From the IMG/VR virus record IMGVR_UViG_3300046787_000266, positions 1-23,438 of that record: DNA of 23,438 nucleotides; one strand, 5' to 3'. The position numbers and the translations under genes were made by a program. Below, one piece after another: positions 3,889 to 22,054 of the stretch (position 1 is its first letter; each line of letters starts with the position of its first letter). The stretch comes from a virus. The notes beneath the pieces are model-generated. The model was not told where the DNA came from, did not search any database, and saw only the letters and a program-made list of their open reading frames with translations.

Positions 3889-3891
3889 TAT

Positions 3892-5937: not shown

Positions 5938-5948
5938 GAAAGAAAAAA

Positions 5949-7400: not shown

Positions 7401-7424
7401 TAACCAAGCTAAAGAGGAAAAACT

Positions 7425-7823: not shown

Positions 7824-10723
7824 TGGCGATTAAGATTCAGCTCCGACGCGGTACAGCCGCAGAGTGGACCTCAGCTAACCCTACCCTGTCCGCTGGAGAA
7901 GCAGGATTTGAGACGGACACCGGAAAGCTAAAAATTGGTACTGGATCAACCGTCTGGACATCTCTAGCATATGCCTCAAGCTTGCCAGCCGACGTTGCCA
8001 CAGACATTAGTGACGCTATTACAGCTCACGACGCCGAAACTACCAATGTTCACGGTATCGCTAACACTGCGGTGCTGGAGACTCAAAGTGGCGCACAGTC
8101 TAAGGCAGATGCAGCCGAAGCGGCAGCGAAAAGCTATACAGACACTGAGCTATCGGCTTTAGTAGACTCATCGCCGGTCCTACTAGATACCCTTAACGAA
8201 CTTGCTGCAGCCTTAAACGATGACCCTAGTTTTGCTACTACTGTAGCAAACAGTATTGCTACTAAGGCAACCCTAGAAATCGACACTGCTGCGGACTGGA
8301 CTGCTGCAAACACAGTGATCACTGCTAGTACTTTTGCCCTAGAATCTGACACCGGACTATTTAAAATTGGAAATGGTGTAACCGCCTGGACTGCACTACC
8401 CTATGCCGGAACCCCGTCTACCGAGATTCTAGCTCACTACGCTAAGACCACAGATGTACACGGTATCGCTAATGCCGCTGATTTAATCACAACATCTCAG
8501 CTAAACGGTCAGTTGACAGGTAAGGCAGACCTAGACTCTCCAACTTTTGTAGGCACCGTTGTAATACCCGGAACAGCTACAATTGCCGGGGTAACTGCTA
8601 CCGATTTAGTCTCGGCTTCGGAACTCTCTACCGAGTTAGCTGCTAAATCGGACCTAAACTCGCCTACTTTTACTGGAGTCGTAGTACTACCTACAAATAC
8701 CTCTATTGGAAACGTAGCCGGATCAGAGATAGCCTACCTTGATGGCGTAACTTCTAGCATCCAGACTCAGCTTGACGATAAGTTAGAGTCAGTCACGGCT
8801 GCCAGCACCTATGCCCCTTTAGCAGACGCTAATCTGACCGGAGTAGTTGTACTACCTGCAACTACATCCATCGGCAACGTGAGCTCAGTCGAGATTGGAT
8901 ATGTGGATGGAGTAACATCTAGTATCCAAACCCAAATTGACAGTAAAGCTGCATCAAGTGATCTGTCTTCTCACGCTTCTGACACCACTAGCGTGCACGG
9001 CATTGCTGACACTACTGAGCTAGAAACTCAGACTGGGGCTCAAGCAAAAGCAGACGCGGCTGTGACTACAGCTAACGGCTACACTGATTCCGAAATCGGA
9101 GCGCTTACTACGTCTGCAGTTGCAGAAGGCACTAACCTCTACTACACAGACGAGCGCGCACAGGATGCTGTCGGACTAAGCGTTGGCGATGGTCTTACCT
9201 ATAATGATACTAGTGGCGCTGTTTCTGCCTCAGTCAGCACTGGACTGCAGTTCAACCTATCCGGAGCCATCGAGATAGATGGAAACGTTACTACAAATTC
9301 TGGTGCTCAAACTTTAACTAACAAAACAATTAATACGGCAGATAATAGCATCACAATCGTGGCTGCAGACATCAGCGATGTGACTGCTTCTGCTGCAGAG
9401 CTGAACCTTCTTGATGGGGTCACTGCTACAACAACAGAACTTAACTATGTTGATGGCGTAACCTCTGCAATTCAGTCTCAGATTGATGCTAAAGCTCCTC
9501 TAGCTAATGCAACTCTAACTGGCACGGTGGTGCTCCCAGCAACCACCTCTATCGGAAACGTTTCAGCAACTGAACTCGGGTATGTTGATGGTGTAACTAG
9601 CGCTATTCAAACTCAGCTGAACGCTAAGGCAGATCTTTCTGGCGATACTTTCACCGGAGATGTAGTTATTTCATCTAACACCGCCTCTAGCAGCACTACC
9701 ACTGGTGCACTAGTAATTACCGGTGGTCTAGGAACCGGAGATAGTGCGTACATCGGTGGAGACCTTATTATTTCGGGTGACTTCACTGTAAACGGAACAA
9801 CTACCACCGTAAACGCTACAGATCTAAGCATCACAGACCCTCTAATCTACATCGGTGAGGGAAACAGCACCAACTCATCTGACCTAGGTATGGTTGCCAG
9901 CTTCAACGATGGTACATATCAGCACGCAGGTCTAGTTCGTGACTCGTCAGACAGCAAGTGGAAGCTTTTCAAGGGTGTAATTGACGAGCCAACAACTACG
10001 GTTAATTTCACTCAAGGATCCCTGGACGCTTTGGCCGTCGGAGCATTCGAAGCAGCTTCAGCAACTATTGGCGACGTCTCTAACACAGAGCTACAGTATT
10101 TGAACGGTGTAACTTCCGCTGTACAGACTCAGCTGGACACTAAGGCTCCTCTAGCTAACGCTACATTTACCGGAACCATAGCTCTACCTTCTACAACAAG
10201 CATCGGCAATGTTTCAGCTACAGAGCTAGGCTACTTGGACGGCGTGACTTCTGCTGTACAGACTCAGCTGGATGCCAAGCTTGCTAGCTCGACAGCTGCT
10301 ACCACCTATGCCCCTCTAGCAAACGCAACCTTTACTGGCACAACTACAGTCTCAGCTAGCGGAATTGCTTTCACTGATGCGACTCAGACAAAAGCTGGTG
10401 TTCCGTCAATTACCACCATCTCGCAGAAAACAGCAGCTTACACACTCTCATCTCTAGCGGAGCGCGATACCCTGATCGAGATTAATAGCTCTACCGGCGT
10501 CACACTGAGCATCCCAACCGATGCATCAGTAAACTATCCTGTAGGTACAACTCTAGATATTTTGCAGACAGGAGCAGGTCAAGTAACTATTGCAGCTGCA
10601 ACCCCCGGAACAACTACAGTAAATGCAACCCCTGGTCTAAAGCTACGCACCCAGTGGTCATCTGCTACACTGATGAAGCGAGCCGCAAATACATGGGTTG
10701 TTTACGGCGACTTGATGGCCTAG
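7823..10723 (+). CDS. Long tail fibre with two Mtd-N-like motifs (966 aa)
   Basis: This is the largest gene in the window. The N-terminus (1-52) has IQLRRGTAAEWTSANPTLSA, GFETDTGKLKIGTG and VWTSLAYAS, the pattern of the major-tropism-determinant N-terminal domain. A second, degenerate copy is at about 149-196 (DTAADWTAANTVITAS, ESDTGLFKIGNG). The shaft repeats VHGIA blocks three times and carries about six copies of a unit resembling TSIGNVSATELGYVDGVTS followed by IQTQLDAKA. A cyanophage-type fibre block, VNGTTTTVNATDLSITDPL through LVRDSSDSKWKLF, lies near residues 660-720. The C-terminus (from about 870) is a beta domain ending WVVYGDLMA. It is probably a trimeric, host-specificity fibre. 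No diversity-generating reverse transcriptase or variable repeat is present, so the Mtd-like start does not imply a DGR here. Confidence 0.9.
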   Translation: MAIKIQLRRGTAAEWTSANPTLSAGEAGFETDTGKLKIGTGSTVWTSLAYASSLPADVATDISDAITAHDAETTNVHGIANTAVLETQSGAQSKADAAEAAAKSYTDTELSALVDSSPVLLDTLNELAAALNDDPSFATTVANSIATKATLEIDTAADWTAANTVITASTFALESDTGLFKIGNGVTAWTALPYAGTPSTEILAHYAKTTDVHGIANAADLITTSQLNGQLTGKADLDSPTFVGTVVIPGTATIAGVTATDLVSASELSTELAAKSDLNSPTFTGVVVLPTNTSIGNVAGSEIAYLDGVTSSIQTQLDDKLESVTAASTYAPLADANLTGVVVLPATTSIGNVSSVEIGYVDGVTSSIQTQIDSKAASSDLSSHASDTTSVHGIADTTELETQTGAQAKADAAVTTANGYTDSEIGALTTSAVAEGTNLYYTDERAQDAVGLSVGDGLTYNDTSGAVSASVSTGLQFNLSGAIEIDGNVTTNSGAQTLTNKTINTADNSITIVAADISDVTASAAELNLLDGVTATTTELNYVDGVTSAIQSQIDAKAPLANATLTGTVVLPATTSIGNVSATELGYVDGVTSAIQTQLNAKADLSGDTFTGDVVISSNTASSSTTTGALVITGGLGTGDSAYIGGDLIISGDFTVNGTTTTVNATDLSITDPLIYIGEGNSTNSSDLGMVASFNDGTYQHAGLVRDSSDSKWKLFKGVIDEPTTTVNFTQGSLDALAVGAFEAASATIGDVSNTELQYLNGVTSAVQTQLDTKAPLANATFTGTIALPSTTSIGNVSATELGYLDGVTSAVQTQLDAKLASSTAATTYAPLANATFTGTTTVSASGIAFTDATQTKAGVPSITTISQKTAAYTLSSLAERDTLIEINSSTGVTLSIPTDASVNYPVGTTLDILQTGAGQVTIAAATPGTTTVNATPGLKLRTQWSSATLMKRAANTWVVYGDLMA

Positions 10724-10730
10724 GGATAGG

Positions 10731-10738
10731 GTAGAATA
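10731..10738 (+). promoter_or_regulatory. Candidate -10 element before the PPFF gene
   Basis: GTAGAATA contains TAGAAT (10732-10737), which ends 8 bases before the ATG at 10746, and no SD site stands at normal distance. The TANNNT hexamer close to the start suggests a leaderless or near-leaderless mRNA. It resembles GTAAAATA at 5211 and 19682. Confidence 0.38.
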
Positions 10739-10745
10739 ACTTACT

Positions 10746-11621
10746 ATGAGTAAAAGAGCCGGTAGACATTCACAGTCTCAGAACGACTTTCTGCAGCCTC
10801 AGGCGCCTATAAATGTTGTAGGCACTGACGTAGGTACTGCACGCGCATTTAATGACGGTGCTGCTAGCGTTGCGTTCGAGCTACCTTCAGGCTCCCCCGC
10901 CGCTACTAGCTACACAGTAACAGCATACAAAGCTGGCGTGCTAGATTCTACAGCTACAGGTGGCACCGGGTCTAGCTCCCCGCTCGTAATTGGTGGCCTT
11001 GACTCAAACACTGCTTACACATTTAAAGTAGTCGCTTCTAACGCAGTAGGCCCATCGGATGCATCTACCGCATCATCCCCAGTAACTATCACTACAGTCC
11101 CGGATGCAGTAGGCACACCTACAGCAACTAGCCCAGTAGCAAACCAAGACTCATTGGCATGGTCTCCACCAGCAACCGGTGGAAAAGCTATCTCTACCTA
11201 CAACTGGGAGAGTACCGATGCTAAGTCAGGATCATCGCCAACCAGCCCGGCAACTATCACCCAAGAGGGTGGAACATCTCAGACATACAAGGTCCGCGCT
11301 GTGAATGCTAACGGAGCTGGCGCATGGTCAGCTTATTCGAACAGCATCTCTACCACCCCACCGTTCTTCCCACCGTTCTTCCCACCGTTCTTCCCACCGT
11401 TCTTCCCGTTCTTCCCACCGTTCTTCCCTCCTTACTTCCCGTTCTTCCCACCGTTCTTCCCACCGTTCTTCCCGTTCTTCCCACCGTTCTTCCCACCGTT
11501 CTTCCCACCGTTCTTCCCACCGTTCTTCCCACCGTTCTTCCCACCGTTCTTCCCGTTCTTCCCACCGTTCTTCCCACCGCACTTCCCACCGCGTTTTGGT
11601 GGAGGAGTTATTTTCGAGTAG
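10746..11621 (+). CDS. FN3-like protein with C-terminal PPFF repeat tail
   Basis: This 291-aa protein has a short polar N-terminus, two fibronectin-type-III-like domains (about 24-117 and 118-204; note SYTVTAYKAG, GLDSNTAYTFKVVASNAVGPS, TYKVRAVNANGAG and GAWSAYSNS) and then an 80-residue tail (205-284) made only of PPFF units with some PFF and single PPYF, PPHF and PPRF variants. It ends GGGVIFE. FN3 domains are common on phage virions, where they bind carbohydrates weakly, so a virion or fibre-associated role is likely. The tail is very hydrophobic and proline-rich, unlike any normal transmembrane helix. It may form a polyproline-like rod, a membrane-active segment or an assembly tag. It is also a conceivable substrate for the proline-hydroxylase-like enzymes encoded directly downstream (inference). 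The gene is closed by a strong terminator. FN3 assignment moderate, function unknown. Confidence 0.85.
   Translation: MSKRAGRHSQSQNDFLQPQAPINVVGTDVGTARAFNDGAASVAFELPSGSPAATSYTVTAYKAGVLDSTATGGTGSSSPLVIGGLDSNTAYTFKVVASNAVGPSDASTASSPVTITTVPDAVGTPTATSPVANQDSLAWSPPATGGKAISTYNWESTDAKSGSSPTSPATITQEGGTSQTYKVRAVNANGAGAWSAYSNSISTTPPFFPPFFPPFFPPFFPFFPPFFPPYFPFFPPFFPPFFPFFPPFFPPFFPPFFPPFFPPFFPPFFPFFPPFFPPHFPPRFGGGVIFE
11358..11597 (+). repeat. In-frame 12-bp tandem repeat encoding PPFF
   Basis: About 14 near-identical 12-bp units CCACCGTTCTTC (Pro-Pro-Phe-Phe) are interspersed with four 9-bp units CCGTTCTTC (Pro-Phe-Phe), one PPYF unit, and final PPHF and PPRF units. Codon choice is almost invariant, so the array is young or homogenised by slippage. 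Every unit length is a multiple of three, so copy-number change would not shift the reading frame. Confidence 0.95.
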
Positions 11622-11633
11622 TAGGCGAATAAG

Positions 11634-11665
11634 AAAAGGATAGACCTAGCGTCTATCCTTTTTTT
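11634..11665 (+). terminator. Intrinsic terminator after the first fibre module
   Basis: AAAAGGATAGAC (11634-11645) pairs perfectly with GTCTATCCTTTT (11651-11662) around a CTAGC loop, and the T-tract runs to 11665. It is a strong Rho-independent terminator 13 bases after the PPFF gene, separating the first tail-fibre operon from the oxygenase block. Confidence 0.92.
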
Positions 11666-11701
11666 ATACGCGTTTTAGTTAGAAAAAGTAATCAACAGTG
11701 G

Positions 11702-11713: not shown

Positions 11714-12457
11714 ATGAGACCGATAAATGACTGGTTCACTAAAGATAGGTCAGAGACAGCTAGCAATAGACTAGCAACTAGGACCGTAGGCTCTATACAA
11801 GTATCAAACCCAGCGCTCGGCATAAACGTGTATAGCAACGCGCTATCAGATTTAGCTTGTAAAAAATTTATTAACACCTTAGAAACAAAGCTAGACGGTT
11901 CGACACAGTATAAGTGGAGCGAGGCTAAGGTAGTCTCTTCGGAAGAGACAGATTTTTCTGCAAGAAATGCTAAAGATTTTAAGTTTTCTTCAAAGGGGCT
12001 AGGTCCTAGGACTGCAGAAAACTCAGACCTATATGACATGCATGAGGAAATCTTTCAAGCTGTTCGCACCTGCGTAGACGACTACGGACGCCTCTGGGGG
12101 GTAGGTATTCAGTCGTACGAAGCTTTTAATTTTGTAAAGTACGAGGGCGCTGGAACACACTTTAAAATCCACGCTGACCACGGTCCTACGTACGTAACCA
12201 CGGTCTCTATAGTTGTATACCTCAACGATGACTACGAGGGCGGCGACATATGGTTCCCTAGAATGGATAATCTATCCATTAAGCCTAAAACCGGAGATAT
12301 AGTAGTGTTTCCTTCTACCTATATCTACGAACACGCTTCTCAGGATATGATTAGCGGTACCAAGTATGCTGTAGTCATAATGAGCGACTACAACGATAGA
12401 GACAATGTAAACCAGAGAGTACCCCAGACGGTACAGGAATATGAGTTGAAATACTAA
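11714..12457 (+). CDS. Prolyl-4-hydroxylase-like 2OG/Fe(II) oxygenase 1
   Basis: This is the first of seven related dioxygenases (247 aa). The double-stranded beta-helix core carries H153-x-D155 (KIHADHG) and distal H207 (YEHASQ), forming the iron triad, and K217 (SGTKYAV) to bind the 2-oxoglutarate carboxylate, as in collagen prolyl-4-hydroxylases. The signature NDDYEGGDIWF and the strand KPKTGDIVVFPSTY lie between them. The N-terminal about 120 residues are variable and probably form the substrate-binding part. Known relatives hydroxylate Pro, Asp, Asn or Lys side chains, or small molecules; the substrate here is unknown. The start is leaderless-type with the promoter hexamer 6 bases upstream. 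Its TAA overlaps the next ATG by one base. Confidence 0.88.
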   Translation: MRPINDWFTKDRSETASNRLATRTVGSIQVSNPALGINVYSNALSDLACKKFINTLETKLDGSTQYKWSEAKVVSSEETDFSARNAKDFKFSSKGLGPRTAENSDLYDMHEEIFQAVRTCVDDYGRLWGVGIQSYEAFNFVKYEGAGTHFKIHADHGPTYVTTVSIVVYLNDDYEGGDIWFPRMDNLSIKPKTGDIVVFPSTYIYEHASQDMISGTKYAVVIMSDYNDRDNVNQRVPQTVQEYELKY

Positions 12458-13206
12458 TGGAAGTTAAAGTGCCAGAGTACGACGAAAGCCAGGGCAAAGC
12501 CGAGCAGGCTCTATTAGAGGATCGCCTGCGAAACTGGTACACCGTTGAAGAAAAAACTTGGAGTTCAGCTGAAGAAGTAGTACCAGGATCAGGCATCTGG
12601 GTGTATAGAGATGTTCTACCTAAAGATATGAATATTATTGAGCGCCTAGAGTCAGTCCTACTTGACGAGGGTAATCAGTATACGTACCAAGAGGCCATGG
12701 TTGGTTACGCTATGAAAATGCCTGAATATCGTGACTGCGTAGATTTCAAATACAAGAAATCAGATATTATTCAAGATACTTCACCGTCAGGTTTAACCCT
12801 CCACCAGCTAGCCGACGATACAGTATTCCGTCAGATGCAGGTAGTTAAAGACTACACCCGACGCTATAACATCGGAGAACTTCGCTACTGGGAAGCCACT
12901 AACTATATTCGCTACGGAGAGGGTCAGCACTTCCAGGAGCACCACGATCACGGCTACTCATATAACTGCGTGGTCTCGTTGGTGAGCTTCCCAAACGATG
13001 ACTACGAGGGTGGCGAGCTATACTTCCGACTACAAAACGCTACTATAAAAGCTAAGGCGGGGGAGACCTACATCTTTCCGTCAAACTTTATGTACCCTCA
13101 CAGGGCAATGCCAGTAAAGTCAGGAGTAAAGTACTCTATGGTTACGATGCTCGACTACTCCGAGAAATTCCACAACCCACAGTTTTATGCAGAAACCGGA
13201 AACTAG
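12457..13206 (+). CDS. Prolyl-4-hydroxylase-like 2OG/Fe(II) oxygenase 2
   Basis: Complete dioxygenase of 249 aa. The iron triad is H162-x-D164 (QEHHDHG) and H215 (YPHRAMPV), and K225 (SGVKYSM) is the 2OG-binding residue. The shared signature here reads PNDDYEGGELYF. The N-terminal 130 residues have no recognisable motif except WVYRDVLP, typical of the first strand of these folds. In the pair 11714/12457 both have a second His after the HxD (HADHG, HHDHG), a feature absent from the other five, suggesting that the two are sisters by tandem duplication. Translation is coupled to the previous gene by a TAATG overlap, with no strong SD site of its own. Confidence 0.88.
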   Translation: MEVKVPEYDESQGKAEQALLEDRLRNWYTVEEKTWSSAEEVVPGSGIWVYRDVLPKDMNIIERLESVLLDEGNQYTYQEAMVGYAMKMPEYRDCVDFKYKKSDIIQDTSPSGLTLHQLADDTVFRQMQVVKDYTRRYNIGELRYWEATNYIRYGEGQHFQEHHDHGYSYNCVVSLVSFPNDDYEGGELYFRLQNATIKAKAGETYIFPSNFMYPHRAMPVKSGVKYSMVTMLDYSEKFHNPQFYAETGN

Positions 13207-13943
13207 TGAAGAACATAACTGTAACTAAGATGTTCCCGCATGCTGCTAACATCGAGCAGCTGCAAGTTAAGCGCGACTGGATGGAAGAGACCGGGGATAA
13301 GCACGCCTACATGTGTGTACCGGTAACTTTAACCAACCGCCTAGGATGGGGCATATCGTATCCTAAAGACATCAGGTTTATCTGGGATGGGATCACTGAC
13401 ACCACCCCCGATCACATAAAAATTTTAGAAGGCGAAGAGTATGTAACCACCGGTAGAGGTAACGCTACTATAAGTTTTATTAGCGGGCTAATTTTTAGAA
13501 CAGATCAAGACACTTCTATGCTGGCTATGCCGGTCCCTAATCAATTTATTAGAGGAGTTCAGAGTTACACAACTCTAATCAGTACATCATTTTACATACA
13601 CGACCTGCCACTAGCCTGGAGAGTTACCGAGCCCAATATCGAAATAGTTATTCCAGCGGGGACTCCAATAGCTGCCATTCTCCCTATCTCTATTTCAGGG
13701 TTGGAGTCCGGATACCAGATATCGGTAAGCGACGAATACCCAGGAGACGATTACTGGACCGAGGTACGTAAATACGGTGACATAGTAGAAATAAAGAATA
13801 ATGTTGGCGACTGGTCCAGAATGTATAGAGAAGCTCTTAACTATAAGGGTGAAGTGATAGGTAAGCACGAAACCAAATCAATACGACTTAAGACAGTAAA
13901 GTGCCCAGCGACAGGAGCGACAATTGAAGTCCCAGATAATTAA
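13206..13943 (+). CDS. DUF6065-like protein A
   Basis: Unknown function, 245 aa. It has the pattern I associate with DUF6065-type proteins: CVPVTLTNRLGWGISYPKDI (about 36-55) followed by RFIWDG, a central FISGLIFRTDQD, LPLAWRVTEPNIEIVIPAGTPIAAILPI, and a C-terminal tail with WSRMYREALNYKGEV. The IPAGTP-IAAILPI segment looks like the end of a jelly-roll barrel. It shares order and motifs with the next gene (CPxxxD/N, G[YW][GV]xxxPxDIxF, PAGTPxAxxxPx), so the two are distant paralogues. The GTG start overlaps the previous stop (TAGTG). Its position inside an oxygenase block suggests it works on the same pathway or product, perhaps as a partner or as a cupin-type enzyme, but no metal-binding His cluster is evident. 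The family name is from memory and should be checked. Confidence 0.6.
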   Translation: MKNITVTKMFPHAANIEQLQVKRDWMEETGDKHAYMCVPVTLTNRLGWGISYPKDIRFIWDGITDTTPDHIKILEGEEYVTTGRGNATISFISGLIFRTDQDTSMLAMPVPNQFIRGVQSYTTLISTSFYIHDLPLAWRVTEPNIEIVIPAGTPIAAILPISISGLESGYQISVSDEYPGDDYWTEVRKYGDIVEIKNNVGDWSRMYREALNYKGEVIGKHETKSIRLKTVKCPATGATIEVPDN

Positions 13944-14667
13944 ATTTATTAGGAACCGACCATGGCTGACTAAAGACAGTCACTCGGTACCTCAGCCTAC
14001 TTCTAAGTGGATCCCTGAGTGGTACCGTAAAGGTGACCGATTTGCTGTAAACCCATACACTCAGGATTACTGGATCAGCCCGCACGACGGGGGCAAAATC
14101 CCTACCTGGAAAGCTTGTCCGGCAGTATTCGATCTAATGATTACAGGATATGTTTTCCGCACCCCTTGTGATATCGAGTTCTACGAAGACTCGAGCGGGG
14201 TAATTGCATGCCGAGTCACCGATCAAATAAACAAAGACTTTGTCAGCTTTAGACCGCCTATGCCGGGCTTCGTAACTCCGCCTGGATTTAGAGACGAGCA
14301 CTTCGCTTGGTGGTCGGATTGGGCTGTAAAGGTGCCGGAAGGCTATAGCGTCCTGTACACTACACCGCTTAATAGGTTCGATCTACCGTTTATCACTACC
14401 GCAGGGATTATAGATAACGACAAGGTCAACTTACCTGGGACTATTCCATTTTTCTTGGTTAAGGGTTGGACCGGAGTTCTTCCAGCTGGAACACCTTATG
14501 CTCAGTTGATACCGTTCAAGAGAGAAGACTGGTCGTCCGTAGTGGATGATACTTTTCAGTACGAGGCCATGGCTAAGGCAAATAACGACAATAGCGCTAA
14601 GTACCGAATCCCCGATGGAGGCGTGTACCAGAAGAATGTCTGGACACGGCGTAAGTATGATCAATGA
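13924..14667 (+). CDS. DUF6065-like protein B
   Basis: Unknown function, 247 aa. The motifs are SKWIPEWYRKGD (27-38), KACPAVFDLMITGYVFRTPCDI (63-84), a VPEGYSVLYTTPLNRFDLPF stretch, IIDNDKVNLPGTIPFFL and GTPYAQLIPFKREDW. This combination is familiar from uncharacterised genes of large tailed phages that often sit beside 2OG oxygenases. It is a distant paralogue of the 245-aa protein just upstream. The start is a TTG, chosen because AGGAG stands 6 bases upstream; it overlaps the preceding gene by 20 bases in another frame. Several exposed aromatic motifs could make a sugar- or ligand-binding jelly roll (inference). No catalytic residues can be named. Confidence 0.62.
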   Translation: MKSQIIKFIRNRPWLTKDSHSVPQPTSKWIPEWYRKGDRFAVNPYTQDYWISPHDGGKIPTWKACPAVFDLMITGYVFRTPCDIEFYEDSSGVIACRVTDQINKDFVSFRPPMPGFVTPPGFRDEHFAWWSDWAVKVPEGYSVLYTTPLNRFDLPFITTAGIIDNDKVNLPGTIPFFLVKGWTGVLPAGTPYAQLIPFKREDWSSVVDDTFQYEAMAKANNDNSAKYRIPDGGVYQKNVWTRRKYDQ

Positions 14668-14673
14668 TAGGAT
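14668..14673 (+). promoter_or_regulatory. Candidate internal leaderless promoter
   Basis: TAGGAT ends exactly 6 bases before the ATG at 14680, the same geometry as TATCAT before 11714, and there is no proper SD site. The preceding gene ends at 14667, so the 12-base gap is filled by this element. It could restart transcription in the middle of the oxygenase block. Confidence 0.38.
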
Positions 14674-14679
14674 ATTATT

Positions 14680-15357
14680 ATGGAACCAACTAACGAAAAT
14701 ATAGATCCGTCACGTCCTGTATCTATTACGCCATCAGGATTTTTTGGCAGCTCGCCGGAAAATATCGTATCTCTAGAAAACTTTATGACAGCTGAAGAGC
14801 TGGAGTTCATGGATAAGTTCGCTAGAGAAAACGACTCGTGGGACTACACCGAGTCACACTATAACGAAGACGGTGTGTGCATCTACGACGCATCGTACTG
14901 GGAGAACCGAGTAGCTACCGAGCCTACCCTGCGTCTAGTTAATCCTGATGTAGTAGAGGTTATTAAGGGTATGCAAGAGCGTCTAAAGGTAGAGGTAGAC
15001 AAATTTTTTAACGTAGACGCTAGGGCAACTAGCCCAGCCCTAGTCCGCTGGCTTCCAGGGCAGTTCCAGAACCCGCACGCGGACAAAGAGCTACACGAGG
15101 GTGACCAGCGCGGTAAGCCTAACGATTTTCCTTACTACGATATTGCCGGGCTTTTCTACTTAAATGACGACTACCAGGGCGGCGAGCTATACTTCCCGGA
15201 GCAGGGTATCCAATTTAAGCCTAAACGCGGTGCTGCCTATTTCTTCCCCGGCGACATGAACTATATTCACGGTGTGACCAAGATCGAGTCAGGTATTCGC
15301 TACGTTAGCCCGTTCTTTTGGACTATTGTAAAACACAGGGGAGATGAGCAGTCATAA
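14680..15357 (+). CDS. Prolyl-4-hydroxylase-like 2OG/Fe(II) oxygenase 3
   Basis: Complete dioxygenase of 225 aa. The triad is H133-x-D135 (NPHADKE) and H197 (YIHGVTKI), and the 2OG-binding residue is R207 (SGIRYVS), so it has Arg where five of its neighbours have Lys. The signature is LNDDYQGGELYF, the only copy with Gln instead of Glu, followed by KPKRGAAYFFP. The N-terminus has SLENFMTAEELEFM, the usual first strand and helix of P4H-type folds. With R207 and the HGVTKIESG segment it looks closer to bacterial P4H-like and PKHD-type hydroxylases than its neighbours do. The start has no normal SD site, and its TAA overlaps the next ATG (TAATG). Confidence 0.88.
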   Translation: MEPTNENIDPSRPVSITPSGFFGSSPENIVSLENFMTAEELEFMDKFARENDSWDYTESHYNEDGVCIYDASYWENRVATEPTLRLVNPDVVEVIKGMQERLKVEVDKFFNVDARATSPALVRWLPGQFQNPHADKELHEGDQRGKPNDFPYYDIAGLFYLNDDYQGGELYFPEQGIQFKPKRGAAYFFPGDMNYIHGVTKIESGIRYVSPFFWTIVKHRGDEQS

Positions 15358-15992
15358 TGTCAAACAACTACGAAGTAGTTGCTGACAAGGTCCTACATTT
15401 TCCGAATGCACTACCGGATCCAGCGGGCGCTATTCAACTATTAGAGAATCAAGCTAGCGCAACGGCCGGAGATTGGATCCCTTGGCATGCTAATAGGAAC
15501 CCTAGTAACACTCAGTACGGAGAACTAAAAGAGTTCACAGAAGCACGTCTAGAGTTGGAGACAGACGAGTTAGTTAAAGAAAAAGCTTCTACTTTTTTGG
15601 AAAACTTCTACGAAACAGTTAACCACTGTATTAGAGAGTATTTCAGGTACCTAGGTCTCGACGACGAGGTGGAGATTTCTTACTTTCAATCTCCTCAAAG
15701 CGTACGCCCAGAACACATAGCTATAAAAAAGTACTTCATAGGAGAGGGCTTAGGACCGCACCCAGACTGGGAGAAAGAGGATCCCGTAGCTTTTACTGCA
15801 TCTATGTACTTTAACGATGATTATGAAGGCGGGGACCTAGGTTTTCGAGATCTAGCGGTCTCCGTGAAACCAACCCCGGGCAGCGTAATAGTTTTCCCCT
15901 CATCCTATTTCCACTACTCAGTACCGATGATTAGCGGTACAAAATACGTAACAAACATCTTAGTACTACTCCCCAAAAGCGCACTAGACTAG
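15357..15992 (+). CDS. Prolyl-4-hydroxylase-like 2OG/Fe(II) oxygenase 4
   Basis: The smallest of the set (211 aa), but complete: H135-x-D137 (GPHPDWE), distal H186 (YFHYSVP) and K196 (SGTKYVT). The signature FNDDYEGGDLGF and the strand KPTPGSVIVFPSSY match its neighbours. The N-terminus starts the fold almost at once (YEVVADKVLHFPNALPD), so there is little extra substrate domain. Proline inside the HxD loop (HPD) is less common than a small or hydrophobic residue but compatible with iron binding. It is joined to oxygenase 3 by a TAATG overlap, so the two enzymes are probably made in similar amounts. Substrate unknown. Confidence 0.88.
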   Translation: MSNNYEVVADKVLHFPNALPDPAGAIQLLENQASATAGDWIPWHANRNPSNTQYGELKEFTEARLELETDELVKEKASTFLENFYETVNHCIREYFRYLGLDDEVEISYFQSPQSVRPEHIAIKKYFIGEGLGPHPDWEKEDPVAFTASMYFNDDYEGGDLGFRDLAVSVKPTPGSVIVFPSSYFHYSVPMISGTKYVTNILVLLPKSALD

Positions 15993-16018
15993 TTAATATT
16001 AATAGACAGGTATAAACA

Positions 16019-16786
16019 ATGTTTTTAGCAGAAAAACTACACGAGCAGGTTTTTTATTATCAAGATGTAATTGAAAACTCAGAGCAGCTGGTAACGTTGA
16101 TCGAAGAGCTAGATTCAGACGAATCTACGCACCCAGTCATCCCTGGGTGGGGTAAGTGGCTATCAAACAGCGCTGATGGCCATGCTTTTGGCGGAAAAAA
16201 AGACTTCGACCCCTCCAAGCTATCGGACCTAGACTCCCCTAGAAAAGCCGATGTAGAGAGAGTAGTTACTGCTATTAAATCTGCTGTCGAAGATGTAGCT
16301 ACGGCATACTATAGAGACCGAGGCTTTGAAGGTAAGCCTAATTTGTCACCATTCACTGGTGTTATGAAGTACCGTCCAGGCTGCGCCATGGGTGCCCACT
16401 TCGATGCGCAGGCTGGAGACAGGACTCTAAAATACTCCATCGTTCTGTATTTGAATGAGGATTATGAGGGTGGAGAGATCTCGTTCGCTGTGCGTGACTA
16501 CGATCTTCGCGACACTAAATTCTCCCACTTAAAGCCGCTAGACGACGTCAATGACCCGGATAACGAGGGTAGGATTGACTTTTGGCTAAAGCCGAAGGCT
16601 GGATCGGCTTTGATCTTTCCATCAACCCACCCATTCATGCACCGGGTCCACACCATGATCTCCGGTGATAAGTACATTTTTCCTGGATTTGTTTTCATCG
16701 AAGAGTTCGATCCTAGTGACCAAGCTTCTAGAGAAAAGTACAATGCTGGATCTGCCTACGAGCCGGTTCAACCATCTAGCTACTAA
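16019..16786 (+). CDS. Prolyl-4-hydroxylase-like 2OG/Fe(II) oxygenase 5
   Basis: Complete dioxygenase of 255 aa. The triad is H127-x-D129 (GAHFDAQAG) with H208 (FMHRVHTM), and K218 (SGDKYIF) binds 2OG. The signature LNEDYEGGEISF is followed by a 35-residue insertion (about 157-187, rich in Asp and Lys) before the KPKAGSALIFPSTH strand. The insertion is shared in shorter form by oxygenase 6 and would widen the active-site mouth. The C-terminal 30 residues (FDPSDQ to PSSY) are polar and probably flexible. The start follows a 26-base gap with ACAGG about 8 bases before the ATG, a fair SD site. Substrate unknown. Confidence 0.88.
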   Translation: MFLAEKLHEQVFYYQDVIENSEQLVTLIEELDSDESTHPVIPGWGKWLSNSADGHAFGGKKDFDPSKLSDLDSPRKADVERVVTAIKSAVEDVATAYYRDRGFEGKPNLSPFTGVMKYRPGCAMGAHFDAQAGDRTLKYSIVLYLNEDYEGGEISFAVRDYDLRDTKFSHLKPLDDVNDPDNEGRIDFWLKPKAGSALIFPSTHPFMHRVHTMISGDKYIFPGFVFIEEFDPSDQASREKYNAGSAYEPVQPSSY

Positions 16787-16787
16787 C

Positions 16788-16793
16788 TAGAAT
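16788..16793 (+). promoter_or_regulatory. Weak candidate -10 before oxygenase 6
   Basis: TAGAAT overlaps the end of the previous gene's stop region and ends 10 bases before the ATG at 16804, which has no SD site. It resembles the other TANNNT elements near starts in this window, but the spacing is longer, so confidence is low. Confidence 0.22.
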
Positions 16794-16803
16794 ACTGACG
16801 TAG

Positions 16804-17655
16804 ATGATAACTAACGAAGATGGCTATATTGTAGAGGAGATATTTCCTCGCATTTTAGTCTTTAAAGGCGCTCTAGATTGCTCGGATGAGCTTATAGATT
16901 TTTACGAGCAAAACTCCAAGTGGAGTAGTTGGTTTACATATGGCACGCATGTAACTGACGAAGGGCCAGCTTTCGAGTGGGACCACTTTCCGGGGCATGA
17001 TGAGTGGCATTTGAAAATGGTTGAATCACAGGCTGACGAGTATAAAAAGCGTATAGCAGAGATTTTTTATGATATTTCTAAAATATACATAGATAAATAT
17101 GACTATGTTAAAAATAGCTGGATCTGCAGAACCTGGAATATCGCAAAATACACCCCAACGCCTGTAGAAAAAGAATCAGCTATGGAGTTTCATACTGATT
17201 TTCAAGAAGAGAGGGCTGAAACACCGGGAGATCAGTTCGGGCTGACTTGTGTATTTTACCCTAATGACGACTATGAGGGCGGCGAGATACAGTTTACGAT
17301 AGTAGGAGATAACCCGTCTGACACTAAATTAGTATCGTTTAAGCCAGAGAAGGGCGACGTAATACTTTTCCCATCCACGGCACCCTACTATCATGGTGTA
17401 AATAATATCTATAGTGGGCATAAGTACATAATAAGACTCTATTGGCTACATAACTACGGCGGGTCCCCTGACTGGCACTCACTTAAAGAGAAATACGGAC
17501 AAGAGTGGGAAGTGCTAGAAGAGTGTCGACTATCAAGTAACCCTAAAACTCACTACTTTAGGTCAGTACCAGGAGCACCTAAGCGGTCTCTAGTCGAGTA
17601 CTACGAGCGACTAGATAGTGGAACCCTCCACCAGTGGGGCGAAGTGGAGCACTAA
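16804..17655 (+). CDS. Prolyl-4-hydroxylase-like 2OG/Fe(II) oxygenase 6
   Basis: The longest of the P4H-like set (283 aa). The triad is H130-x-D132 (EFHTDFQ) with H197 (YYHGVNNI), and K207 (SGHKYII) is the 2OG residue. The signature is PNDDYEGGEIQF; a short insertion (about 166-175) precedes the KPEKGDVILFPST strand. Unlike the others it has a C-terminal extension of about 70 residues (from LHNYGGSPDWHSLKEKY to EVEH), rich in charged and aromatic residues, which may be a partner-binding arm. No SD site is visible, and a weak -10 candidate lies 10 bases before the ATG. It is followed after 3 bases by the TauD-like gene. Substrate unknown. Confidence 0.87.
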   Translation: MITNEDGYIVEEIFPRILVFKGALDCSDELIDFYEQNSKWSSWFTYGTHVTDEGPAFEWDHFPGHDEWHLKMVESQADEYKKRIAEIFYDISKIYIDKYDYVKNSWICRTWNIAKYTPTPVEKESAMEFHTDFQEERAETPGDQFGLTCVFYPNDDYEGGEIQFTIVGDNPSDTKLVSFKPEKGDVILFPSTAPYYHGVNNIYSGHKYIIRLYWLHNYGGSPDWHSLKEKYGQEWEVLEECRLSSNPKTHYFRSVPGAPKRSLVEYYERLDSGTLHQWGEVEH

Positions 17656-17658
17656 TCA

Positions 17659-18507
17659 ATGCCTGCTATAGATATAGTTCCAGTGTCCTCTTTAGCGGAT
17701 GCGATTTCCAACATAGATGATATCGCTAGGCTGTTCGCAGAAGAGGGGATAGTGCTCTTAAGGGGTCATAAATTCTCTACAGAAGAGCAGCTCGCTACGG
17801 CTAAGATTCTAGGGGACGAGTTCTCTTGGAATGTTTGCTCGGACGCTAGTAGCGACACCCTGAGCAGCGCTATATATTATGGAGGACATTCCGACATCCA
17901 GGGGAGAGACTACAACCAAACTAGAGAAGAGTACGTGCTAGATTGGCACATAGAGCAGGTCTATTACGTAGATCCCGTACTGGCAGGGCTGTGGAGTATG
18001 ACCACATTTACTGCAGACTCGAAGTCTGGAAATACGAGATTTGTAGACTCTACAGGCCTATTCGATTCGCTTACTGATTCAGATAAAGAGTTTCTATCAC
18101 AATCGGTAGTGTCTTGGAACAAGCCATTATCTAGCGGATCGGGACCATTCTTTACCCCGGCAGTGTCAGATCATCCGATAACAGGTAGACCTACACTCAG
18201 GGTGGAGACTGATCAGGGGTGTATTTCTATGCCAAAGCTAGAGCTCTGGGCAGGCTCCCACCCGACCGTGAACCAAGTAGAGACATTTGAAAATATCATG
18301 ACAGCGATAAAAGCTCGATTGCTAAGCGACCAAGATATTAGATATTCTCAGAGGTGGCAAGAAGGAGATCTACTGATCGTTGATCTTTTCAGGATGTACC
18401 ATGCCGTCATGGGCGGGTTCGGATTTGGTCAACGGATAATTACCGGTATAGTAGTAAGGCCTAAAAACTACACCAACGATCTTTATGACAGTTTGGATAA
18501 AATATGA
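17659..18507 (+). CDS. TauD/TfdA-like 2OG/Fe(II) oxygenase with HxE triad
   Basis: This 282-aa protein belongs to a different 2OG-oxygenase branch from its neighbours. The start EEGIVLLRGHKFSTEEQ, then DWHIEQVYYVDPVLAGLWSM, GNTRFVDS and WQEGDLLIVDLFRMYHAV follow the TauD/TfdA/clavaminate-synthase order. The iron site is H97-x-E99 with distal H248, and R259 (GQRIITGIV) holds 2OG. Glu in place of Asp is seen in the clavaminate synthase and asparagine/arginine-hydroxylase branch, which act on free or carrier-bound amino acids and small molecules. This suggests a small-molecule or precursor substrate rather than a folded protein (inference). The start uses GTGGAG about 10 bases upstream, and the stop overlaps the next ATG by 4 bases (ATGA). 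Confidence 0.82.
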   Translation: MPAIDIVPVSSLADAISNIDDIARLFAEEGIVLLRGHKFSTEEQLATAKILGDEFSWNVCSDASSDTLSSAIYYGGHSDIQGRDYNQTREEYVLDWHIEQVYYVDPVLAGLWSMTTFTADSKSGNTRFVDSTGLFDSLTDSDKEFLSQSVVSWNKPLSSGSGPFFTPAVSDHPITGRPTLRVETDQGCISMPKLELWAGSHPTVNQVETFENIMTAIKARLLSDQDIRYSQRWQEGDLLIVDLFRMYHAVMGGFGFGQRIITGIVVRPKNYTNDLYDSLDKI

Positions 18508-18974
18508 ATGAAGAGCTAAGACCAGCCCACAAAAACCTACTGGAAGATTTTAAGGCCAGGGTATTAGATAAGTCTGCTGATTCGTATCTGCTTGCTATTG
18601 CGAGAGACGGCGAGTTCCCGGCTAGATCTATCTACTTTTACGGTGATGCGGTGTCCGCTGCCGCCGGGTACGGGAACTATATCGACTGGGGTTTTGCAAA
18701 AGATTTTTTAACTGTGACCCTATATGAGCCTACTGGTAAAGTTCACGAAAAAGTACTACAACGTCCACGTGGTGGCGAATGCGTGTTTGTTAGAGATGAC
18801 TACAACACAGCTGCCGAGATTTTTTTAGACTGTAAAAACAACATTTCAGAAGAGTCTTATAACCAACTTGTCTATAGGTTTGCTAAACTATTTTCTAAAG
18901 ACAACCAGCGCTTTAATCATGAGCGTTTTTTAATCAACACCGGCTATACAGGAGAGATCACCGATGGCGTTTGA
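18504..18974 (+). CDS. Conserved-looking protein of unknown function (156 aa)
   Basis: I do not recognise a named family. It is a compact alpha/beta protein: a helical start (LRPAHKNLLEDFKARVL), strands with SYLLAIARDGEFPARSIYFYGDA, an IDWGFAKDFLTVTLYEPTGKVHEKVLQRPRGGECVFVRDD core, and a helical end (SEESYNQLVYRFAKLFSKDN). No transmembrane segment, signal peptide or Cys cluster is present. The PRGGECVFVRDDY motif is a good handle for searches. It is locked between two oxygenase genes with overlaps on both sides (4 and 11 bases), so it is surely co-translated with them and probably acts in the same process, for example as a partner subunit or adaptor (inference). The codons and frame are clean, so it is a real gene. 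Confidence 0.78.
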   Translation: MNEELRPAHKNLLEDFKARVLDKSADSYLLAIARDGEFPARSIYFYGDAVSAAAGYGNYIDWGFAKDFLTVTLYEPTGKVHEKVLQRPRGGECVFVRDDYNTAAEIFLDCKNNISEESYNQLVYRFAKLFSKDNQRFNHERFLINTGYTGEITDGV

Positions 18975-19632
18975 GAATAAGGGATACTTCAAGGAAGATA
19001 TCATCCACTATGACGATTTCATCCCTGTAGAGGATCAGCAGAGAATTATCGCCTACTTCGAAGATGAGGGGCACCCGTGGAGTATGTCTGCGTTTTACGA
19101 GTCATACGGAATGAGCCTGCTCGTAGACGACCCTAAGCTAGAGGAATATGGACTACCTAGAGACTACCTAGGTAAACTAGTCACCAGACTACAGGAGCAT
19201 GTAGAGAACGCTCACGGGCGTCCAGTAAAATCAGTATCAAGCCACGCTCAGAAGTGGGAAGTTGGCGCTTTTGCACCATTCCACTCCGACAACACCGACA
19301 TGGACGGAAATCCTTCCGCCTGGGAGAAAAGCAAGCTCGTGTGTTTGCTGTATATCAACGATAGTTACGAAGGCGGAGAGTTAGATTTTCGCGATCATGA
19401 ACTGACTATCAAACCTAAGGCGGGACAGCTAATTACCTTCCCTGGTGGGATTTTAAACGTTCACCAAGTTAAGCCAGTGGAGTCCGGGACTCGACACACA
19501 ATCGGTGCATTCTGGGATTACGCCGAGTCAGAATATTCTGAAGAGCGCTTGGCAGAATGGGAAGCCGAGATCGAGAAGGTCCGCGAGGAACAGAAGCTTC
19601 AGCAGGAGCAGTGGCGCAAGGGTGTTTATTAA
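18964..19632 (+). CDS. Prolyl-4-hydroxylase-like 2OG/Fe(II) oxygenase 7
   Basis: Last enzyme of the block (222 aa). The triad is H107-x-D109 (PFHSDNTD) with H167 (NVHQVKPV), and R177 (SGTRHTI) binds 2OG. The signature is INDSYEGGELDF and the strand KPKAGQLITFPGG. The ESGTRH end, with Arg, resembles oxygenase 3 and canonical P4H-like bacterial proteins. The C-terminus has a charged helix (EERLAEWEAEIEKVREEQKLQQEQW, about 192-218) likely to form a short coiled coil, which no other member has; it may tether the enzyme to a partner or to itself. The ATG has GGAGAG about 7 bases upstream, inside the preceding gene, which it overlaps by 11 bases. Substrate unknown. Confidence 0.88.
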   Translation: MAFENKGYFKEDIIHYDDFIPVEDQQRIIAYFEDEGHPWSMSAFYESYGMSLLVDDPKLEEYGLPRDYLGKLVTRLQEHVENAHGRPVKSVSSHAQKWEVGAFAPFHSDNTDMDGNPSAWEKSKLVCLLYINDSYEGGELDFRDHELTIKPKAGQLITFPGGILNVHQVKPVESGTRHTIGAFWDYAESEYSEERLAEWEAEIEKVREEQKLQQEQWRKGVY

Positions 19633-19724: not shown

Positions 19725-20087
19725 GTGCATTGTGCTACCACCAATTATTACGACATTATTGTCGATCAAGGTGCTACCCTACTGCGCTCTCTAGCTATCA
19801 AAAACTCGGCTAAGAAGCCAATATCTGTTGCTGGATACACCGCTCGTATGCAGGTTCGTGAAAAATCCTCCTCTACTACCGTTGTTTTACTGCTAACTAC
19901 AGAAAATGGCGGAATCGAGCTCAACCCAACCGCTGGAACAGTTCTAATTATCGGAACTCCAGCTCAGACTGCCGCACTTAATCCGACTAGTTACGCCTAT
20001 GACTTAGAGTTAGAGGAAACTGCTACCGGAATAGTCACCAAGATTATTCAGGGCAATCTGACAGTCCGTCCGGAGGTAACTAGATAG
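19725..20087 (+). CDS. Small beta-rich tail-module protein, second copy
   Basis: This 120-aa protein is a paralogue of the gene at 5258 with the same length. Shared blocks are [36 protein letters not shown] and the end EVTR, with roughly 40 percent identity by eye. It is therefore likely another baseplate or fibre-attachment adaptor, this time for the collagen-like fibres that follow. It starts with GTG and a good AGAGGA SD site 6 bases away; a short extra N-terminus (MHCATTN) replaces MSTPAG of the other copy. The codons for its last residues contain GGAGG, which is the SD site of the next gene, and its TAG overlaps the next GTG by one base. A precise function is not known. Confidence 0.8.
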
Positions 20088-22054
20088 TGCTATCAGATAA
20101 CTTTGCATACTTAGAGGTCAAAAGCGTTGGTGTTCAGGGACCAGCCGGTCCAACCGGCGCTCCCGGTCCAGCGGGTGGCCCTACTGGCCCTACAGGTACA
20201 CAAGGCCCAACCGGCCCTCAAGGCCCGACAGGTGCAACTGGTGCAACTGGTGCAGCAAGCACGGTAACCGGCCCAACCGGACCACAGGGACCAACCGGAC
20301 CTCAGGGTGCGCAGGGTATCCAGGGTGAACAAGGTTTACAAGGTGAACAGGGTCCTACAGGTGCTCAAGGGCCGATTGGTGCCACTGGCTCACAAGGTAT
20401 CCAAGGTGTCCAGGGAGCGACTGGTCCTCAAGGTATCCAAGGTGCCACTGGCCCTCAGGGTGCGACTGGTGCAACAGGTGCCACTGGCCCTCAGGGTGTG
20501 CAGGGCGATACAGGTCTCACTGGTTTAGTTGGACCTACCGGTTCTCAAGGCCCTACAGGTGCTCAAGGCATCCAAGGTGTCACCGGCCCGCAAGGCATTC
20601 AAGGTGCCACTGGGCCAACCGGCGCTCAGGGTGTGCAGGGCGCAACTGGTGCTACTGGTGCTACTGGTGCAGTTGGCCCCACTGGAGCAACTGGTGCAGC
20701 CGGTGCAGATAGCACGGTAGCTGGGCCAGCGGGTGCCACTGGACCTACAGGCGCTAAGGGTGATGCAGGACTTACTGGTCAGGTAGGTCCTACTGGTGCA
20801 ACTGGTTCTCAGGGTCAAACCGGTATTCAGGGTGTACAAGGTATTCAAGGTATCCAGGGTATCCAAGGCATTCAAGGAGCAACTGGTCCACAAGGTCCCA
20901 CAGGCGTACAGGGGTTGACAGGTGCTACAGGAGCAACTGGTGCTACAGGAGCAACTGGTTCACAAGGTGTTCCCGGAGATACGGGCCTCACTGGGCAAGC
21001 AGGGCCGACAGGCCCTACTGGAGCGCAAGGTATTCAGGGACCCACTGGAGCCATTGGCCCTACCGGATCCCAGGGTACGTCTATTCACTTTGCTGGTTCA
21101 GTAGAAGAAGTAGCTGACCTACCGACAAACGATTTAAGTGTAAACGATGCGTACATCGTAAACTCCAACGGAGATCTTTACGTATGGAACGGCACCGGCT
21201 GGGATAATGTTGGTCAAATTGTTGGTCCTCAGGGCGAGGTGGGGCCTACAGGCCCAACCGGACCGACTGGTGCTCATGGTGTTTACGAAGTGTCCGAGCT
21301 ATCCCCAGAGAATCCCGTAGAGGGAGACGTTTGGTTTGATTCAGCTTCAGGGCAGACGTTTGTTTTTTATGACTCGTACTGGGTAGAGATAACTGCAAAT
21401 AAGGTTGGCGCGACTGGCGCGACTGGTGCAACTGGTGCAACTGGTGCAACCGGGGCCACAGGATTGACTGGAGCTACTGGCGCAACTGGCCCTCAGGGCG
21501 GCACTGGCCCAACTGGAGCAACTGGCGAACAAGGAGTCCAGGGTGCAACTGGCCCTCAGGGTGTTCAAGGTATTCAAGGAGCCACTGGTCCTCAGGGTGA
21601 AGTTGGACCTACCGGCCCAACCGGTGCAACTGGAGCAGACTCTAACGTAACTGGTCCAACTGGCGCAACCGGAGGCATCGGTCCAACGGGACCAACCGGA
21701 CCAACCGGACCTCAGGGCGAACAAGGAGTCCAGGGTGCAACTGGCCCTCAGGGTGTTCAAGGTATTCAAGGAGCCACTGGTCCTCAGGGTGAAGTTGGAC
21801 CTACCGGCCCAACCGGACCTCAGGGGCTTCAGGGTGTTCAAGGAGTAACTGGACCAACCGGAGAAACTGGCAATCAAGGCCCTACAGGGCCTACTGGCGC
21901 ACAGGGTATTCAAGGGCCAACAGGTCCAACTGGTGCAGGTCTACCTACGGGTGGTACTATAAATCAAATACTGACTAAAGCATCGTCTGACGACTATGAC
22001 TACCAGTGGGCAGACCCTAGTGCGCTTACAGTAATTGACGGAGGAACTGTCTAA
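20087..22054 (+). CDS. Collagen-like tail fibre 1 (655 aa)
   Basis: Mostly Gly-X-Y triplets: blocks at about 18-330, 380-398 and 441-620. Pro is nearly always in the X position (GPT, GPQ) and Thr, Gln, Ala or Val in Y, so the protein lacks the X-Pro-Gly context typical of animal prolyl-4-hydroxylase targets but is rich in GPT and GAT. Two non-collagen modules interrupt it: 331-379 ([20 protein letters not shown]) and 399-440 ([18 protein letters not shown]). These are fibre-type beta knobs. The end ([20 protein letters not shown]) is the common C-terminal junction of collagen-like phage fibres. It should form a trimeric rod on the virion. The GTG start overlaps the previous stop and uses GGAGG 10 bases upstream. 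An exact 101-bp internal duplication is present. Confidence 0.9.
21524..21624. repeat. 101-bp exact direct repeat, copy 1
   Basis: The segment is identical, base for base, to 21716-21816. The offset is 192 bases, a multiple of three, so it adds 64 codons without changing the frame. It lies in the third collagen block of the 655-aa fibre and points to recent slippage or unequal recombination. Confidence 0.95.
21716..21816. repeat. 101-bp exact direct repeat, copy 2
   Basis: Second copy of the exact repeat at 21524-21624. The flanking bases differ on both sides, so the identity ends sharply at 101 bases. Confidence 0.95.

Follow-up and report, generated by a model that had tools for sequence, protein, structure and literature searches.

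We identified in a phage a block of 2OG/Fe(II) oxygenase genes that, on balance, was probably a virion-protein-modification cassette, in which the core prolyl 4-hydroxylase-like (P4H-like) enzymes would hydroxylate the (PPFF)n tail of an fn3-domain virion protein; further changes made by the array behind this core were more speculative. Few "auxiliary metabolic genes" are as widespread in aquatic viruses as prolyl 4-hydroxylase, and its viral use has been called cryptic (PMC9301287). The (PPFF)n tail provided a candidate substrate for the viral P4Hs, backed by a test of gene association in which collagen-pattern loci served as the control.

The window, i.e., the whole stretch of 23,438 nucleotides that was analyzed, had no near DNA match in INPHARED. 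Its positions 11714-19632 were filled by 11 ORFs on the same (+) strand, most of which abutted or overlapped by a few bases. They encoded seven P4H-like enzymes, one TauD-like enzyme, two DUF6065-type proteins, and one orphan, and were flanked by two tail-fibre modules; the first-pass annotation had claimed this composition, and profile searches agreed with it. The core consisted of P4H-A (11714..12457, PF13640 3.6e-11), P4H-B (12457..13206, PF13640 4.3e-12), the DUF6065 protein DUFa (13206..13943, PF19541 2.1e-26), the DUF6065-like DUFb (13924..14667, phrog_7084 6e-33), and P4H-C (14680..15357, PF13640 1.2e-07). The variable array continued with P4H-D (15357..15992, PF13640 6.4e-07), P4H-E (16019..16786, PF13640 8.2e-11), P4H-F (16804..17655, PF13640 8.3e-10), and the TauD-like oxygenase (17659..18507, PF02668 4e-20). 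After the orphan of 156 aa (18504..18974), P4H-G was the final gene of the array (18964..19632, PF13640 1.2e-11, phrog_61 1e-27). Fibre module 1 (5258-11621) ended in the fn3-PPFF protein, and module 2, which occupied the rest of the window from 19725 onwards, was collagen-like with matches to phrog tail-fibre families. No homologue of 4104-5066 was found in Pfam, PHROG, NCBIfam, or PDB.

All seven P4Hs scored above the Pfam cut-off of 27 bits for PF13640 (2OG-FeII_Oxy_3, 30.7-47.3 bits) and matched PHROG_61, annotated as "2OG-Fe(II) oxygenase". It had been stated earlier that every catalytic triad and 2OG-binding residue was intact. Indeed, HxD...H...K/R was complete in 7 of 7 P4Hs, and the HxE...H...R motif of the TauD-like protein (73.2 bits for PF02668, cut-off 27) was read by eye as HIE with a later H and R. 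Among the relatives, HxD/E...H...K/R was present in 505 of 509 full-length P4Hs, the remaining four being cut by contig ends. The seven window enzymes were P4H-like by profile and motif, and their prolyl 4-hydroxylase activity was putative. By sequence, the nearest PDB chains to P4H-A were 3itq and 5hv0, labelled prolyl 4-hydroxylase (E 7e-6 over 79 residues), which we take to be the Bacillus anthracis P4H. The latter is a single cellular gene, and only its C-terminal core aligned with P4H-A. Since the window paralogues had diverged (23-47% identity to one another), the triads were kept, and the P4Hs of the close pair L012 and L014 were under purifying selection (dN/dS 0.009-0.059), the block was not a product of chance.

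The block recurred in 81 viral loci, and P4H-B had 272 relatives in IMG/VR. Complete blocks held 3-12 P4Hs with a median of 6. The block was typical of its phage group and no one-off, which amended the first-pass annotation. The order A-B-DUFa-DUFb-C began 57 of the 59 complete blocks and was followed by a swappable array with 31 arrangements among these 59. For example, L012 and L014 were 88% identical except for a one-gene cassette, and the TauD gene was missing from the block of L008, a near relative of the window (76-93% DNA identity over aligned stretches). Because the core was constant and the cassettes were swapped, with triads kept and dN/dS low, the earlier proposal of selection for many distinct active oxygenases was supported.

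The proposed substrate was encoded just upstream of the block (10746..11621, + strand, Pfam fn3 7e-08). The C-terminal (PPFF)n tail of this fn3-domain protein comprised ~85 residues with 38 Pro and 40 Phe, and the repeat contained no K or R. Wherever the sequence before the block was long enough to tell (40 of 40 loci), the same type of protein was located just upstream, a figure drawn from one lineage chosen by P4H-B. Moreover, when PPFF-coding DNA was scanned, 52 of 65 loci had a P4H no more than 3 kb downstream, and 0 of 43 had one upstream, among the matches listed. The collagen-pattern control had a P4H in 5 of 51 loci (Fisher p 7e-15 versus 52/65, among the matches listed). After single-linkage dereplication, 7 of 14 PPFF clusters were P4H-positive versus 5 of 47 collagen-pattern ones (p=0.003), also among the matches listed. 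The other 13 of the 65 listed loci had no P4H at this distance, and in several of them no modification enzyme was seen nearby. Further neighbours of PPFF genes were themselves modification enzymes, namely an Asp/Asn beta-hydroxylase (1.9e-11), a sulfotransferase (1.4e-5), and a radical-SAM/SPASM enzyme; epimerase genes also occurred near some PPFF genes.

The virion-decoration role suggested by the first-pass annotation was supported because the PPFF protein was directly upstream in all testable loci and P4Hs were linked to PPFF in the scan. This support was narrowed to the (PPFF)n tail and did not extend to the collagen-like fibres. A block common in phages that have neither type of proline-rich fibre would have spoken against that role, and this test did not refute it. 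A cellular origin of PPFF was considered and rejected: 257 Gb of genomes contained 55 exact pattern stretches, with 10 real PPFF ORFs, three of them with a P4H. Among cultured phages, the search for a PPFF fn3 protein gave one weak match, an unannotated faecal phage record. In the literature searched, which mostly excludes subscription journals, we found no paper on PPFF in phages or on hydroxyproline in phage fibres.

Between the PPFF gene and the block, there was an intrinsic terminator (11635..11661, + strand) with an 11-bp stem and a U tract. The RNA fold of 11628-11672 had an energy of -20.7 kcal/mol (z -7.5), and of 56 PPFF genes scanned, 21 had a terminator at the equivalent position. 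Since this strong terminator split the PPFF gene from the block, the two probably did not form one simple operon, a point against the PPFF-modification reading, and the enzymes were probably a separate transcription unit.

Inside the infected cell, the core P4Hs would most likely hydroxylate prolines of the PPFF tail, a candidate substrate pointed to by gene linkage, and this would give polarity to a tail that is rich in proline and very hydrophobic. The hydroxyproline may then be glycosylated, in some relatives, by a GlcNAc transferase of the Skp1 type. More speculatively, the variable-array enzymes could add position-specific hydroxylations on the tail or on neighbouring fibres, and gain or loss of cassettes could alter the surface chemistry used in adsorption. 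A still bolder idea, possible but doubtful, was a combinatorial chemical tropism: the constant core would modify the monotonous PPFF tail, the swapped oxygenase cassettes would write hydroxylation patterns with an optional GlcNAc cap, and the phages might vary adsorption by exchanging enzymes and not the fibre sequence.

The transferase gene belonged to PF11397, the Skp1-hydroxyproline GlcNAc-transferase family, and was located between the PPFF gene and P4H-A in some relatives including L008. The matches in L030 and L008 reached 75.9 and 71.1 bits (cut-off 21; E 5e-21 and 1.5e-19). For Dictyostelium Skp1, hydroxylation first and GlcNAc second was an established order (PMC3515798). Similar to that pathway (PhyA and Gnt1), P4H-like and PF11397-family enzymes were paired in these relatives, here as gene neighbours. 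However, the Dictyostelium pathway serves oxygen signalling at one proline of a host protein, and here the proposed target was a virion repeat tail. A PF11397-type gene was present in 4 of 14 long records and, when the scan was widened to 102 PPFF loci, in 1 of them among the matches listed; the window had none. The transferase was thus an optional component, which counted against the PPFF-modification reading. Two genes adjoining it in relatives, X263 (267 aa) and X197 (197 aa), fitted HxD...H by eye, but they were not claimed as 2OG enzymes because the hhalign comparison to P4H was weak (E 0.02, probability 2%).

Several other observations also spoke against hydroxylation of the PPFF tail. 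A two-residue repeat did not obviously need 3-12 different hydroxylases, and P4H-like genes were also found elsewhere in the block-carrying genomes (7-15 per record). A linkage of PPFF and P4H differs from chemistry, the association being known here from genes. Furthermore, the predicted DUF6065 fold suggested nucleotides rather than proteins as the target. DUFa matched PF19541 with 93.3 bits (cut-off 26.6), and DUFb had no Pfam match; phrog_7084 was common to DUFb and, weakly, DUFa, and hhalign linked the two over 35 columns. The AF2 model of DUFb (pLDDT 83.6) had a predicted dUTPase/dCTP-deaminase-like fold: against such folds, the best Foldseek E was 4.7e-4 with low TM, and VIA Z was up to 9.9 over 127 residues. 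The orphan, kept in relatives that also had P4H-G, matched nothing in Pfam, PHROG, or NCBIfam, and its AF2 model had a pLDDT of 81.7, yet the fold search gave no significant match.

According to the usual reading of viral P4HA (PMC9301287), which the first-pass annotation shared, the substrate of the oxygenases would be the collagen-like fibres in module 2, where prolyl or other hydroxylation could stabilise the triple helix. A collagen-like gene did lie 3' of the block in the window and many relatives, and five listed collagen-pattern loci had a downstream P4H. However, the Y position, which is the canonical collagen P4H site, was occupied by Pro in 67 of 6046 triplets. In the tail fibre at 20087..22054 (+ strand, phrog tail-fibre families), Pro was in X and not in Y (55 X-Pro and 3 Y-Pro in 168 GXY triplets); another collagen-like fibre of the window had Y-Pro in 0 of 73 triplets, and Y-Lys numbered 0-1 in the window. 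Moreover, the complete blocks L068, L074, L077, L081, and L082 carried a 1227-aa non-collagen gene instead. Because of the X/Y count and the rarity of P4H in the collagen-pattern control, collagen was demoted as the main substrate. This half of the earlier claim was not supported, and we regarded it as distinctly unlikely. An action on sugars, lipids, small molecules, or host surface components during infection was also unlikely. The 2OG-FeII_Oxy_3 and TauD superfamilies include small-molecule enzymes, the enzyme diversity was compatible with a biosynthetic pathway, and the epimerase and sulfotransferase genes near some PPFF genes would fit it, but the block had no conserved common sugar-nucleotide pathway, its constant neighbours were fibre genes, and the linkage was to the PPFF repeat and to no sugar gene.

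The array could alternatively be an AMG-like accumulation: oxygenases gained by horizontal transfer would be tolerated at a hot spot within a host-recognition island, with unrelated targets and no common system. The 31 arrangements and the cassette difference between L012 and L014 agreed with this, and a passage in PMC3909814 names Fe(II)-dependent oxygenases among the genes of variable host-recognition regions (metaviromic islands) of marine phages; no array or substrate link was found in that passage. The near-invariant five-gene core and the purifying selection on all members made such an accumulation quite improbable. Modification of nucleotides or phage DNA, with dUTPase-like DUF6065-type proteins and P4Hs as base hydroxylases, was very unlikely. 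It drew on the predicted DUFb fold, on a halovirus DUFb homologue that adjoined thymidylate synthase and DNA polymerase, and on two PHROGs that matched P4Hs and were annotated as "DNA endonuclease". On the other hand, the block was situated between tail-fibre modules and linked to PPFF, and a normal dUTPase was already encoded elsewhere in 10 of 14 records. We rejected DNA modification since TET/JBP (PF12851) had a match above the cut-off in 0 of 14 long records and in none of the window proteins (P4H-C, 13.4 bits versus 34.9); the matches in 14 of 14 long records were under the cut-off, several at P4H positions. Anti-phage defence was tentatively set aside as well: in the PADLOC comparison, which covered P4H-A to P4H-F, the sole match was to a generic 2OG model with a CRISPR-associated annotation, and six P4Hs matched it.

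If hydroxylation of the PPFF tail is true, a large phage class makes virions that contain hydroxyproline and may be glycosylated; extensins, collagen, and Skp1 are the more familiar examples of such chemistry. The prolyl 4-hydroxylase of Chlorella virus PBCV-1, likewise a viral P4H and similar by description, reportedly accepts proline-rich repeat peptides. Unlike the window phage, PBCV-1 is a eukaryotic algal virus with no array, PPFF, or DUF6065. In connection with this enzyme, 4-hydroxyproline in viral proteins has been described (Eriksson et al. 1999, via PMC9301287). Other counterparts were the PHROG_61 or viral P4HA genes found in phages from marine and fresh waters, such as Synechococcus phage S-H9-1: as here, they encoded homologous P4H-fold oxygenases, several per genome and some beside tail-fibre genes. 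However, they were scattered and had no proposed substrate ("cryptic", PMC9301287), whereas here an ordered core and an array, with 3-12 P4Hs, were tied to PPFF and DUF6065. For the S-H9-1 oxygenase, structural similarity to the prolyl hydroxylase EGLN3 has been reported (PMC12774648). The phage carrying the block described here was aquatic.

The window, a linear IMG/VR virus record of 23438 bases, carried on its minus strand a ribonucleotide reductase cluster (nrdF, nrdE, nrdI and glutaredoxin/nrdH) with an adjoining gene for a DUF3039 protein, all within 41-4107. DUF3039 was presumably an actinobacterial family, and its presence hinted at an actinobacterial host. The next minus-strand gene (4104-5066) encoded a 320-aa protein that had no match in Pfam, PHROG, NCBIfam or PDB; its EDPK motif was reminiscent of five-bladed beta-propeller glycosidases. 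On the plus strand, the oxygenase block (11714-19632) was located between two groups of tail-fibre genes, called fibre module 1 (5258-11621) and fibre module 2 (starting at 19725 and reaching the window's end). Each module opened with a copy of the same 120-aa gene (5258-5620 and 19725-20087), suggesting module duplication. This gene belonged to phrog_1084 and weakly matched phrog_3304, L-shaped tail fibre assembly.

The first-pass annotation had listed eleven genes in the block, with intact active sites in its oxygenases, and both points were borne out. Seven prolyl-4-hydroxylase-like oxygenases (P4H-A to P4H-G in gene order) scored above the curated cut-off of PF13640, and all seven kept the HxD...H...K/R residues; the other genes encoded one TauD-like enzyme, two DUF6065-type proteins (DUFa and DUFb) and a 156-aa orphan without a match by family profile or predicted-fold search. 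The seven P4Hs were diverged paralogues with 23-47% local identity.

Searching IMG/VR with P4H-B found 272 relatives, and the best 80 loci were kept. In these and the window (81 loci), a custom ORF caller and an HMM built from the seven window P4Hs identified 520 P4H ORFs. The order A-B-DUFa-DUFb-C opened 57 of the 59 blocks with both ends visible, while the genes after it followed 31 arrangements, with 3-12 P4Hs per block in all. The block was a constant core followed by exchangeable cassettes. Metal and 2OG residues were kept in 505 of 509 full-length P4Hs, and the remaining four reached contig ends. Two close relatives (L012 and L014), 88% identical in DNA and one inserted P4H gene apart (L012 12887-13722), had dN/dS values of 0.009-0.059 for the P4Hs, 0.054 for TauD and 0.063 for the orphan. 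The kept residues, low dN/dS and near-invariant core order indicated that the block was neither decaying nor random. The 14 long virus records contained 7-15 PF13640 matches each. Additionally, L077, L081 and L082 had an extra P4H-like gene near 0.9-1.8 kb, 33-35% identical to P4H-A; it lay within fibre module 1, some 8 kb ahead of the block.

Directly upstream of the block, the gene at 10746-11621 encoded an fn3 domain followed by about 85 residues that were nearly all Pro or Phe, the (PPFF)n tail. Of the block loci, 40 had 3.5 kb or more of sequence ahead of P4H-A, and all 40 carried such a PPFF gene. Since these loci were chosen by P4H-B and represented one lineage, the test was turned round, starting from PPFF. 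Viral contigs were scanned for a PPFFPPFFP DNA pattern with oxygenases ignored, and a locus was counted when its PPFF ORF was real and was followed by 3 kb of sequence. Among the matches listed, a P4H was located within 3 kb downstream in 52/65 loci and upstream in 0/43, and a collagen-type pattern handled identically gave 5/51 (Fisher p 7e-15 against 52/65, with related contigs not independent). After harsh single-linkage DNA clustering of the listed matches, the difference was 7/14 versus 5/47 (p 0.003). Of the 13 listed PPFF loci without a nearby P4H, L203 had an Asp/Asn beta-hydroxylase and P4Hs farther off, L112 a DUF6065-like gene and a P4H farther off, and L100 a DUF6065-like gene and a sulfotransferase (Sulfotransfer_2 match); several others had no modification enzyme in the visible sequence.

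Some relatives carried a further enzyme. In L030 (5e-21) and L008 (1.5e-19), a gene of PF11397, the family containing the Skp1-hydroxyproline GlcNAc transferase, was located between the PPFF gene and P4H-A. Apart from this insert, a neighbouring 264-aa gene and the absence of TauD, L008 was colinear with the window, and the stretches that aligned shared 76-93% DNA identity. The transferase was found in 4 of the 14 long records and in 1 of 102 loci of the wider PPFF scan (among the matches listed), and the window had no such gene; it was thus optional and outside the core. The Dictyostelium transferase Gnt1 acts on Skp1 that has been hydroxylated (PMC3515798). Where the transferase occurred, it supported hydroxyproline as the product.

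The analysis showed the gene content of the block, the conservation of its active sites, purifying selection, the constant core, the exchangeable cassettes and the PPFF linkage. In the proposed mechanism, P4H-A, B and C would probably hydroxylate the PPFF tail, and in some phages the GlcNAc transferase would then extend the modification; more speculatively, the array enzymes might set different patterns or act on other fibre sites, changing host contact. However, a simple repeat does not account for so many enzymes, and the linkage rests on few independent lineages. Collagen-like fibres were a less likely substrate. In the block loci, their triplets had Pro at X in 2058/6046 and at Y in only 67/6046, so canonical collagen P4H sites were nearly absent; Y was mostly Thr, and the enzymes could possibly modify Thr or X-Pro. 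Some complete blocks were followed by a 1227-aa non-collagen gene.

A role in nucleotide metabolism was considered for DUFb. Its predicted structure (pLDDT 83.6, pTM 0.77, fair confidence) appeared something like the dUTPase/dCTP deaminase fold (Foldseek 4.7e-4 at low TM; VIA Z 9.9 over 127 residues). Plain dUTPase duty was unlikely because an ordinary dUTPase was also present in 10 of the 14 long records. In a halovirus, the DUFb homologue (KC117376, 28132-29001) adjoined genes for thymidylate synthase and DNA polymerase; these surroundings belong to nucleotide metabolism and differ from the fibre genes around DUFb in the window.

Phage P4H-like genes are abundant and well known, their use being called cryptic (PMC9301287), and structure-based annotation puts many phage genes of this type among 2OG oxygenases (PMC12774648). 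Another paper lists Fe(II)-dependent oxygenases in host-recognition islands (PMC3909814). A literature search without most subscription journals turned up neither a multi-P4H array nor PPFF tails in phages.

A strong terminator (11635-11661) was located 3' of the PPFF gene, and 21 of 56 scanned PPFF genes had one in the corresponding position. The enzymes and the fibre gene are thus likely to be transcribed separately, an arrangement that would make sense if one product is a catalyst and the other an abundant structural substrate.

Other features were noted around PPFF genes. The records G001 (~34.9 kb) and G005 (~63.2 kb) had a second PPFF-coding stretch past fibre module 2, besides the block-adjacent one. 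Three contigs in bacterial MAGs (L339, L350 and L371), likely prophages or phage contamination, had PPFF ORFs with 2-3 downstream P4H genes. One family of roughly 310-aa proteins, which matched GSHPx (thioredoxin-fold) weakly, recurred within 6 kb downstream of PPFF genes (12 members among neighbours, e.g., L122:2206-3159, minus strand). A second recurrent neighbour (11 members, e.g., L162:1225-2010 and one in L203) had an N-terminal HIPKTSG/HIPRTSG motif resembling that of sulfotransferases, though the representative scanned had no Pfam match. In at least 15 relatives (e.g., L028:7724-9097 and L018:7717-9051), the PPFF protein ran about 160 residues past the repeat. This extension started with Cys and looked Hint/bacterial-intein-like (PDB 2lwy, E 6e-4; weak Pfam Hint matches), suggesting that the protein may cleave itself where the PPFF tail ends. 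In L083, L084 and L086 the repeat was followed by 156-166 residues, similar in length to the Hint tail but without its Cys and His-Asn ends; this stretch might be a Hint domain that has degenerated.
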